DNA of 52,656 bases, from NCBI GenBank assembly GCA_017474385.1, contig JAFVHU010000009.1:1-52656 (forward strand), given 5' to 3'. Origin of the DNA: Afipia sp. (GTDB lineage: Bacteria > Pseudomonadota > Alphaproteobacteria > Rhizobiales > Xanthobacteraceae). This document shows positions 34,499-41,369 of the stretch, piece by piece. How positions within the stretch are numbered: position 1 is the stretch's first letter; the number at the start of each line of letters is the position of its first letter. The notes beneath the pieces were generated by a model that saw nothing but the letters and a program-made list of their open reading frames with translations, searched no databases and was not told the origin of the DNA. Position numbers and translations under genes: made by a program.

Positions 34499-34781
34499 GA
34501 ACGGCGTAGGTTATTGATAACTGGCGTGCCACGGCCGATGGAAATGGGTACTACTCGTTCGCCGTGGCGCTATGACGGACTATCCGGATCGGCTCTAAAA
34601 CCATCCAAGCCCGTTCGCCCTTCTTTGGAACAACACGCCTCCTCCGCGGCCAAGTTGCCGCTCGTTTAGTCGTTCGCGGGGCCGACGCTCTCTTGGTCGA
34701 CGGCAGCACCCGATCGGGCCGGCATGCGGGTCGTGTAGCTCTGATCTTCTTCTGGAAGGAGTACAGAGCTACAGAGAACAT

Positions 34782-35963
34782 TCAACCGGGCCACATACCC
34801 AGGGGTGGAGCGCTTGCATGGGAATGGTTTGCCGCTTGCGCCGAGTCGGGTGGAAGCCGTTCTATTAGATCCAAGACAACATCCACCGAGCGCTTGAAGG
34901 TGCGGCAATGTACCGTTTCAGTTGTCGCTGCGGAACCATTCTCAAAAATCTTGTTTGATGGCGCGCCTCCGCCACAAAGACCGTAGTAGGCGCACGTGTC
35001 GGCACATTGACGCACCCCCGCCTTGATGTCCGCATAGAGGCGGCTTTCGTGCACCCGGGCGGCAATTTCCTCGAAACTGTCACGGGCCAGGTTGCCAAAG
35101 CAGAACGATCCATACGCTTCGTGCTCAACGCCCAAAAGTTCCGGCGAGAAGGTGGAGAGATTGCCGTCGCAATCCAACGAGATGATGCGGAATGGCTCGT
35201 TCTGCTCGTTGCGGACTGGGGTGCCGTGTACCTCGATCATCCCCATGCATTGCTCGACCTCTCGAACCAGAACGGGCCGTTGCCGTTGAACGGCGAGATC
35301 TAGGAAGCGCTGCAAGAACGAGCGATACATCGCGTCCGCAGTTTCGCAGTTCACGAGTTTCGACCTGGCATTTGCTCCTTCCTGCTCTTCAACATTGAAG
35401 CAGATGTACCCGATCTGGTTCTCGACATAGAAATCGAGCATCTTCTCCGGCTGCGCCATGCTTTCGACCGTCAGCACGCTGATGACATGAAAGGAAATGC
35501 CCGCGCGCTGTAACATCCGCAAACCTTCATACGCACGGTCGAACGACCCGGCACCGTTCCTTTGTTTTCGGTAAAGGTCGTGCAGTTCACGCGGCCCGTC
35601 GATGCTAACGCCGATGTTGACGTTCCATTTCTTAATGAGTTCGCACCAGGCTTCAGAAACCAGCGTTCCGTTGGTCTGAAATGAATGTCGGATATTCAAA
35701 TGAGGTGCGGCGATAGCCCGGATCAGTTCAAACATCCGTTCGTAGTAACTAACCGACAGAACCATCGGTTCGCCAGCATGCCATACGATGGTTACGGACT
35801 CCCCGATCGTAGGAAACGCAAGGAGTTTCTTGAAGATGATTTCGGCTAACTCAAACGTCAGCCGCTTCTTCGAGGATCGATGGGGCAGATAGCAATAAGT
35901 ACAATCGATGTTGCAAAAGGGCGTTGGCTGAAGAACCAAAAGGCTGGTTTGGCAATACTCCAT
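34782..35963 (-). CDS. Radical SAM/SPASM maturase (GrrM-like, cyclophane-type RiPP)
   Basis: A 393-residue radical SAM enzyme. The 4Fe-4S/SAM motif is P-F-C-N-I-D-C-T-Y-C-Y with Cys17, Cys21 and Cys24. The C-terminal SPASM domain has scattered cysteines, including C-A-D-T-C-A-Y-Y-G-L-C-G-G-G and a final V-H-C, that hold auxiliary clusters. The L-L-V-L-Q-P-T-P-F-C-N-I-D opening is, to my recollection, typical of the GrrM group that acts on rSAM-modified peptides. The ATG at 35963 follows GAGG and lies 68 bases after the stop of the precursor at 36032-36286, on the same strand. Likely reaction: carbon-carbon crosslinks on the Trp-x-Asn triplets. The reaction is inferred. Confidence 0.9.
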   Translation of the reverse strand: MEYCQTSLLVLQPTPFCNIDCTYCYLPHRSSKKRLTFELAEIIFKKLLAFPTIGESVTIVWHAGEPMVLSVSYYERMFELIRAIAAPHLNIRHSFQTNGTLVSEAWCELIKKWNVNIGVSIDGPRELHDLYRKQRNGAGSFDRAYEGLRMLQRAGISFHVISVLTVESMAQPEKMLDFYVENQIGYICFNVEEQEGANARSKLVNCETADAMYRSFLQRFLDLAVQRQRPVLVREVEQCMGMIEVHGTPVRNEQNEPFRIISLDCDGNLSTFSPELLGVEHEAYGSFCFGNLARDSFEEIAARVHESRLYADIKAGVRQCADTCAYYGLCGGGAPSNKIFENGSAATTETVHCRTFKRSVDVVLDLIERLPPDSAQAANHSHASAPPLGMWPG

Positions 35964-36031
35964 TTACCGCAACCTCGCGGGGCACGCGACCCGTTCCTTG
36001 ACTTGCCGCTCAGATGGCGAAGCCGGATGGG

Positions 36032-36286
36032 TCAGTGGTGGTGATTGCCCCAATGATGGTTGTGCCAATTATTCCAATTTGGCCAGTGCTGCGCGAGCTT
36101 TTCGCCCTTCGATTCGGTGCTGGCCTTCGCTTCGCCTGATACCGCAAGCTTGCCCAATTCCGCGATCTTGGCCTGCGCATTGGCGATCCGCTGGTCGAGA
36201 GGAACATCAGTCGGGCTGGACGCGGCGGGAGCCCCGCTGGTCGTTAGAATCAGGGCCGCAAGAGCACCGAAAATACCGCGGAACAT
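36032..36286 (-). CDS. Candidate three-residue cyclophane RiPP precursor (W-x-N repeats)
   Basis: An 84-residue peptide with a very strong ribosome site (GGAGGGGGG) before the ATG at 36286. Residues 1-22 look like a signal peptide (F-R-G-I-F-G then a hydrophobic core, A-P-A-A). Residues 25-66 are a helical, charged leader. The last 17 residues start at Trp68 and read W-P-N, W-N-N, W-H-N, then H-H, then W-G-N and H-H-H. Trp-x-Asn is the motif crosslinked in triceptide RiPPs such as XncA-like peptides. It lies directly upstream of the radical SAM/SPASM gene on the same strand. A transport or protease gene is not seen nearby. The coding call is firm; the modification is inferred. Confidence 0.82.
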   Translation of the reverse strand: MFRGIFGALAALILTTSGAPAASSPTDVPLDQRIANAQAKIAELGKLAVSGEAKASTESKGEKLAQHWPNWNNWHNHHWGNHHH

Positions 36287-36317: not shown

Positions 36318-36659
36318 ATGTCAGAGCAGCTTACTTCCCTCAAGCCGTATTGGCTGACCTGTCCCTCATGGCTTCGCGGAAATTATTCCGTGGGAATGGT
36401 GCCGATAGAGCGCGAGGCCCGCAGGCGAGTGCGGACCGAGTCAGGCGGCTACCGCCGCGACGACCTCCGCGCACTGGCCCAGCGCGTTGAAGTGGACGCG
36501 AAAGAGGTTCGCATCATGGTGAAAAGCTTGCTCCTGCGCACGCTTGTCGCCGCATCGAGCGCAAAAACAGCAGGCTTTGGAGTGCCCAGTTTTGTACCGT
36601 ACTGGCGCGCCATTCAGAATAAAACTGCGAACTCTTATGTAATTGAAATTACTATATAA
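36318..36659 (+). pseudogene. C-terminal fragment of a site-specific recombinase
   Basis: A 113-codon frame from 36318 whose end (V-K-S-L-L-L-R-T-L-V-A-A-S-S then K-T-A-G-F-G-V-P-S-F-V-P) resembles the C-terminus of large serine recombinases in Bradyrhizobium relatives, as I recall it. A helix-turn-helix-like part (D-D-L-R-A-L-A-Q-R-V-E-V) precedes it. No catalytic domain is present, so this is a remnant. It borders an AT-rich 80-base tract (36600-36680) next to the RiPP locus and marks an old integration. Confidence 0.5.
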
Positions 36660-36813
36660 TTTTATAAACTTCCAGAAATGAAATCCTGAAGGGACCTCCT
36701 CCTCGGCGCCTACCGTTCACGACAGGACTATGACGCCGAGCGATTCTTAATTGGTTGCCAAAATAGCCGTGTCGTGCGCCTTTTCAGGCCAAGGAGCTTG
36801 AAAGTTCGGGGCG

Positions 36814-41033: not shown

Positions 41034-41369
41034 CTAGTCGACTTTCTTTTCGGCCGCCTCGCCCTGCTTGACGATGTCACCCTTCGTGAACAGGATGCCA
41101 TGGAGCTCGATCCGCCAGTCCGCCTTCTTGCGCAGCAGAAACTCGAGGTTCATGCCGAAGTGCTTGAACTCCTCCCTCTGCGCGTTCGCCATGATCGCCT
41201 TGGCGTCCTTGTGCTTCTCGACGGACATGCGCTGTTCGTACCAACTGATCGCCTCCGCCTCCTCGATGAGCGACGTGATCATGCGAGCGAAGGTGCGGAT
41301 GTCCTGGGAGAGTTCCTCCGGCGGTTCGCGGTATTGATCGAAGCCCATCTTGTTGTCCTTCTGTTTCAT
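41034..41369 (-). CDS. Encapsulin-type ferritin-like protein (EncFtn family)
   Basis: A 111-residue helical protein matching the small ferritin that is loaded into encapsulin shells. The iron-site residues are visible: E-E-A-E-A-I-S-W-Y (Glu36, Glu37, Glu39, Trp43, Tyr44) and R-E-E-F-K-H-F-G-M with the later Glu and His. In the family, two chains form the ferroxidase site between them. GGAG lies six bases before the ATG at 41369. The tail G-D-I-V-K-Q-G-E-A is short and no encapsulin gene is in the window, which is odd for this family. Confidence 0.85.
   Translation of the reverse strand: MKQKDNKMGFDQYREPPEELSQDIRTFARMITSLIEEAEAISWYEQRMSVEKHKDAKAIMANAQREEFKHFGMNLEFLLRKKADWRIELHGILFTKGDIVKQGEAAEKKVD

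Follow-up and report, generated by a model that had tools for sequence, protein, structure and literature searches.

The original triceptide papers are reportedly those of Nguyen in 2020 and Sugiyama in 2022. Passages of PMC11002830 describe OscB (IPR026357) as linking Trp C7 with the beta carbon of either Asn or Asp, and XncB or OscB as linking Phe C4 with the beta carbon of Asn. Part of PMC10304443 has triceptide enzymes installing single or multiple cyclophanes, and a section of a mapping paper (PMC9062424) mentions Aro-Xaa-Asn motifs in further clusters. The excerpt of a leader-protease review (PMC10885120) holds nothing on the GrrM/OscB family. The open literature searched, which omits the main subscription papers, contained no report on the clade described below and nothing useful on GrrM itself.

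Within the window, the whole 52,656-nucleotide stretch of DNA that was analysed, a precursor peptide gene and a radical SAM/SPASM maturase gene stand next to each other (Table 1). Both are read from the minus strand, the precursor (ATG at 36286, stop at 36032) being followed after a gap of 68 bases by the maturase (ATG at 35963, stop at 34782). The coordinates, lengths, strand, gap and motifs claimed in a first-pass annotation of this DNA all agree with the sequence. By eye, a GGAGG-type ribosome-binding sequence is located immediately 5' of the precursor ATG. A longer precursor frame of 103 residues can be read from a TTG, yet this form is less likely than the 84-residue one, because a good ribosome-binding sequence precedes the ATG and the Met-Phe start is common to four aligned relatives. 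A promoter and terminator scan gave nothing informative.

Table 1. Positions of the locus features within the window
Feature	Position	Strand	Supporting observation
Precursor peptide gene, 84 aa	36032..36286, stop included	-	homologues adjoin maturase in L034, L035, L036, L005
Signal-peptide-like start, residues 1-22: MFR, hydrophobic stretch, A-x-A	36221..36286	-	hydropathy peak of 2.26 (12-residue stretch)
Leader motif LDQRIANAQAKI, residues 30-41	36164..36199	-	R33, I34, A37 and Q38 invariant in clade
Core WPN-WNN-WHN-HH-WGN-HHH, residues 68-84	36035..36085	-	triplets at 36085-36077, 36076-36068, 36067-36059, 36052-36044
GrrM/OscB-type radical SAM/SPASM maturase gene, 393 aa	34782..35963, stop included	-	TIGR04261 score, fold model
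Radical SAM cysteines C17-x3-C21-x2-C24	35892..35915	-	kept in 89/89 rows
Auxiliary-cluster cysteines C320-x3-C324-x5-C330 and C353	34905..35006	-	89, 89, 89 and 88 of 89 rows
Block common to window and L034, 1.9 kb, 91% identity	34524..36415	.	DNA comparison

Searched against NCBIfam, the maturase scored 427.4 bits with TIGR04261, the model of the cyclophane-forming GrrM/OscB enzymes, over model positions 1-362 of 363 and against a cut-off of 310. Among the best 25 of 73 matching models this was the only one above its own cut-off; lower-scoring models under their cut-offs were led by AmcB, sulfatase maturase, YhhB and DynA, and DarW also scored. On these scores the enzyme can clearly be placed in the cyclophane-forming GrrM/OscB family, and not in a family with non-peptide substrates. 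It is the single GrrM above cut-off in its own genome. An AlphaFold model of the maturase (pLDDT 90.9, pTM 0.88) matched SPASM peptide enzymes in the PDB, namely a sulfatase-maturating enzyme, ChlB, a sactipeptide thioether enzyme, which we take to be CteB, and SuiB. Some of these entries were solved with ligand, namely some of the sulfatase-maturating enzyme with peptides and ChlB with leader. The structure-model alignment comprised 40 of the 89 maturases.

The nearest solved relative by sequence is the sulfatase-maturating enzyme, and TIGR03942 gave 174.2 bits, both of which would fit an enzyme of the anaerobic sulfatase-maturase type, or a different radical SAM enzyme, that neighbours a small His-rich secreted protein only by coincidence. 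However, the TIGR03942 cut-off is 349.45, on which ground identity as a sulfatase maturase was rejected, and the pair stays together across lineages while the flanks differ, which argues against chance neighbours. We regard this explanation as extremely improbable. A viperin defence role was rejected as well, since the 44.1 and 27.4 bits obtained with the PADLOC viperin models were taken to reflect the shared radical SAM core.

The SPASM cysteines had been described as intact. This holds for the four auxiliary-cluster cysteines of Table 1, but not for C265 and C288, found in 24 and 3 of 89 rows, respectively; the aligned maturases have no second auxiliary set in common. Because C320, C324, C330 and C353 are near-universal and C265 and C288 rare in these 89 rows, one auxiliary cluster is likely the rule. 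In the window maturase itself C265 and C288 might complete a second cluster.

The C-terminus of the 84-residue precursor reads ...HWPNWNNWHNHHWGNHHH. Three of its triplets abut directly and the fourth comes after two His; when the last 20 residues were shuffled, four W-x-N occurred in 164 of 200,000 shuffles. Cys is absent from the precursor, and seven of the last 18 residues are His. The signal sequence was assessed by hydropathy and by eye. No meaningful curated family was found for the precursor in NCBIfam or Pfam, the one NCBIfam match being at chance level (E 0.099), and the GrrA model TIGR04260 (cut-off 31 bits) gave no match at E up to 10. The best TIGR04260 match in the same genome, of 16.8 bits, is located at another place. 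A search for a second precursor in this genome returned none better than E 0.17, and viral contigs gave no useful match.

The maturases of the window, L034, L035, L036 and L005 form one clade (support 100/98). Invariant in all five aligned precursors of this clade are M1, F2, A19, A21, L30, R33, I34, A37, Q38 and Q66, together with W68, N70, W71, N73, W74, N76, W79 and N81 of the core, which are the Trp and Asn of the four triplets. The middle residue of the triplets varies within this five-member alignment. From its conservation, the leader motif of residues 30-41 is the probable recognition helix of the maturase. The core His are not invariant and the His tail is missing in L005, and the idea of His-rich metal-binding ends, put forward in the first-pass annotation, thus finds no support.

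The same core bears on the possibility that the maturase acts on the precursor by another reaction (thioether formation, epimerisation or His crosslinks like those of HaaB/YhhB), or on some of the triplets only. Several SPASM peptide enzymes have the same fold, the precursor tail is rich in His, and AmcB, YhhB, DarW and further models also score, though lower. Against this, GrrM/OscB was the sole model above cut-off among those best matches, Trp and Asn rather than His are the core invariants, and the precursor offers no Cys. We consider this possibility unlikely. The TIGR04261 score, the invariant Trp and Asn and the pairs found in relatives bear out the initial proposal of a precursor-maturase pair of the three-residue-cyclophane (triceptide) kind, and a triceptide gene pair at this locus is well supported by sequence comparison.

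Named genomes were scanned with the clade maturases, which returned 220 relatives, and the best 80, from Pseudomonadota, Acidobacteriota, Cyanobacteriota, Planctomycetota, Myxococcota and Nitrospinota, were kept. An Aro-x-Asn precursor is present upstream at 76 of these best 80 loci, so that the precursor is indeed conserved beside its maturase. Of these, 74 were picked by an automatic rule, applied without a chance control, that asked for an upstream frame ending within ~230 bases of the match and carrying one or more Aro-x-Asn among its 60 C-terminal residues; 70 of the 74 contain three or more triplets. The other two (L061 and L083) were recognised later by eye and are labelled 'none' in the tree. 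Among the four remaining loci, L075 and L087 have less than 100 bases upstream, L040 has ~540, and at L068 no precursor was found. In L061, upstream of 8001, a cyanobacterial precursor rich in W-Q-D triplets ends a longer stop-free frame.

The 74 automatically picked precursors, that of the window and eight from further genomes make up a set of 83, which excludes L061 and L083 and holds 82 distinct sequences, L003 and L081 being the same. The set contains 658 triplets, with Trp (520), Phe (134) or Tyr (4) in the first position and Asn (644) or Asp (14) in the third. Trp is followed by Asn at +2 in 510 of 643 cases, versus 5-30% at six other offsets tested. Triplet spacing is zero in 151 of 575 spacings, and at least three triplets abut in 27 of the 83 precursors, the longest run being seven. 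At the other extreme, three members (L006, L092 and L110) have only a single W-R-N. The leader motif R-[LIVM]-x-x-[IVLMA]-[RKQTS] occurs in 64 of 83 precursors versus 3.9% of shuffles (19 are without the motif as written), and a strongly hydrophobic stretch in 71 versus 20% of shuffled copies (12 are without it), both the pattern and the hydropathy threshold having been picked after inspecting the sequences. In some of the 83 rows the most hydrophobic stretch lies away from the start. When TIGR04260 was run on ten relatives' precursors, two passed (131.1 and 49.3 bits), both Gly-spaced, while eight with tandem, mixed or single forms failed, L035 reaching 19.2 bits. A second GrrM pair in G035 (L148:1097-1390) and one in a Bradyrhizobium MAG (L113:7612-7902) have cores that alternate F-N-Q and F-S/T-N triplets.

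The dense tandem triplets, the signal-like leader and the lack of a transporter had each been thought unusual. For the first two, the frequencies among the 83 precursors speak otherwise. On the maturase tree the tandem-array label changes 11 times, at least eight of these changes being forced by supported branches, with long-branch warnings for several rows; row L099 is a matched stretch in which a single stop, close to the end, was read as X. Since tandem arrays are scattered over the tree, tandem packing is a recurrent state and no peculiarity of the window locus. As to transporters, none was seen by eye among the recurrent neighbours of the 80 loci, of which five groups were scanned for families, a weak indication that their absence is ordinary.

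GrrP-like genes lie ~1 kb upstream of the maturase in 7 of the 80 loci, and the one of these seven that was scanned gave 246.6 bits with TIGR04262. Because so few loci have such a gene near the enzyme, GrrP seems optional. The best TIGR04262 match in the window's own genome, of which the assembly is 84% complete, was 45.7 bits against a cut-off of 190. Directly after the maturase and on its strand, 19 of the 80 loci have a gene of unknown family (e.g. L046:6401-7141), which starts 2-198 bases past the match in 16 of them; in L060, L064 and L078 it forms a single frame of 628-632 residues that overlaps the maturase and may be a fusion with it. One member was scanned and had no Pfam or NCBIfam match. 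Neither this follower nor a GrrP-like gene adjoins the window pair. Additionally, six of the 80 loci (L047, L077, L095, L102, L103 and L109) have a gene of ~900-1,090 residues 14-772 bases after the maturase; again the one member scanned had no match in Pfam or NCBIfam. The neighbours of the window pair are ThuA-like, OprB porin and TPR genes, which look unrelated to it, and none of the genes adjoining it was recognisable as a protease or immunity gene. Elsewhere in the window, 41034-41369 (-) encodes an EncFtn-like protein of 111 aa.

The closest comparison is with L034, a MAG named Bradyrhizobium sp., whose maturase is 96% identical to that of the window. The DNA block shared by the two has sharp edges, at 36415 and 34524, and the rest of the 11-kb L034 stretch has no DNA match to the window and one protein-level match (34%), to an unlinked window gene. 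This comparison suggests past movement of the pair as a small unit of DNA. Within the block the L034 array is longer through a 10-residue in-frame change that is still W-x-N/D, giving seven such triplets, one of them W-H-D, versus four in the window. Near the sister pair, L034:9690-9992 (-) encodes a small protein that begins like a signal peptide and contains a long Gly-His repeat.

Just outside the block in the window, 36417-36610 (+) is a C-terminal recombinase-family fragment; its counterpart in G259 lies directly against tRNA-Arg (L131:5180-5256). At the other block end, 34522-34575 is 80% identical to L131:9369-9422 of G259, which lies 3.9 kb from the recombinase fragment there. The G259 arrangement prompted the idea of a tRNA-linked island, which was left as only a lead, the window having no tRNA and no repeat pair linking the block ends. 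A 60-base repeat at 36603-36663 has scattered copies, up to 97% identical and several in some genomes, in 14 of 29 same-genus genomes searched (own included). The OprB side of the locus is also present in G139, which belongs to the same genus. None of the genomes examined had both flanks joined, and no clean empty site was found among them.

The system is rare in the family of the window, where 11 of 296 genomes (own included) have the maturase above cut-off. Clade-precursor matches were obtained in 10 of the 296 (own included), four of them strong and all beside a maturase, the remaining six being weak (E 6e-5 to 8e-3). Across the order, a maturase was matched at E of 1e-60 or lower in 3 of 397 genomes (own included). 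This rarity, and the position of a lone two-gene block adjoining a recombinase fragment, could point to a decaying, non-working relic. However, both frames are intact, the conserved enzyme cysteines are retained, and dN is below dS versus L034 in both genes: 0.051 vs 0.192 over 83 codons of the precursor, figures that only 19 base differences underlie, and 0.018 vs 0.156 over 393 codons of the maturase. A relic is therefore very improbable.

We are confident, short of certainty, that the locus is a two-gene triceptide (RiPP) system of the GrrA-GrrM/OscB kind. As read from their sequences, the two genes would encode a small peptide, probably exported, and a radical enzyme that very probably staples each Trp-x-Asn triplet into a tiny ring. 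In such a system the maturase would bind the precursor leader, probably through the R-I-x-x-A-Q helix, and in the cytosol would link the indole of each Trp to C-beta of the Asn at +2. If the reaction goes to completion, as many as four three-residue rings could form, of which three would abut directly. After modification the peptide may be exported by means of its N-terminal signal sequence, to be cut off by signal peptidase; any further trimming would presumably fall to a protease encoded elsewhere. Our guess for the product is a peptide that works outside the cell, either secreted or periplasmic. A more specific picture, in which an exported rigid rod of abutting cyclophanes with a fast-changing ring count is encoded by a 1.9-kb two-gene block that travels independently from one genome to another, is rather doubtful.

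Among described systems, ChlB-ChlA (PDB 9gm3, 9gmc) offers a solved radical SAM peptide enzyme with bound leader, with a TM-score of 0.77-0.78 to our model; the window maturase is, however, only 19-20% identical to ChlB, and the papers searched from 2024 on gave nothing on ChlB chemistry. For the cyclophane enzymes, we presume that the XyeB model corresponds to XncB and the FxsB model to MscB. XncB/XyeB, MscB/FxsB and HaaB/YhhB are likewise described, in passages of PMC11002830, as making three-residue cyclophanes between residues i and i+2. The window maturase nevertheless falls short of the XyeB, FxsB and YhhB models, with 75.3 (cut-off 450), 115.5 (370) and 152.3 (445) bits.

GrrA-GrrM/OscB (TIGR04260/TIGR04261) is alike in maturase family, in Aro-x-Asn triplets, in the hydrophobic start and R-L/I leader motif of the precursor, and in the precursor gene being upstream on the same strand. 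In contrast, the window precursor lacks Gly spacers, is His-rich and falls under the GrrA model, and there is no GrrP gene above cut-off. The peptide family itself was already known; what is new, and well supported, is the clade of spacer-free Trp-triplet precursors. Because the curated GrrA model fails these precursors, annotation based on it would leave them unnamed beside their maturases. The window and L034, with nearly the same enzyme and arrays of different length, provide a natural test of how one maturase handles abutting triplets.
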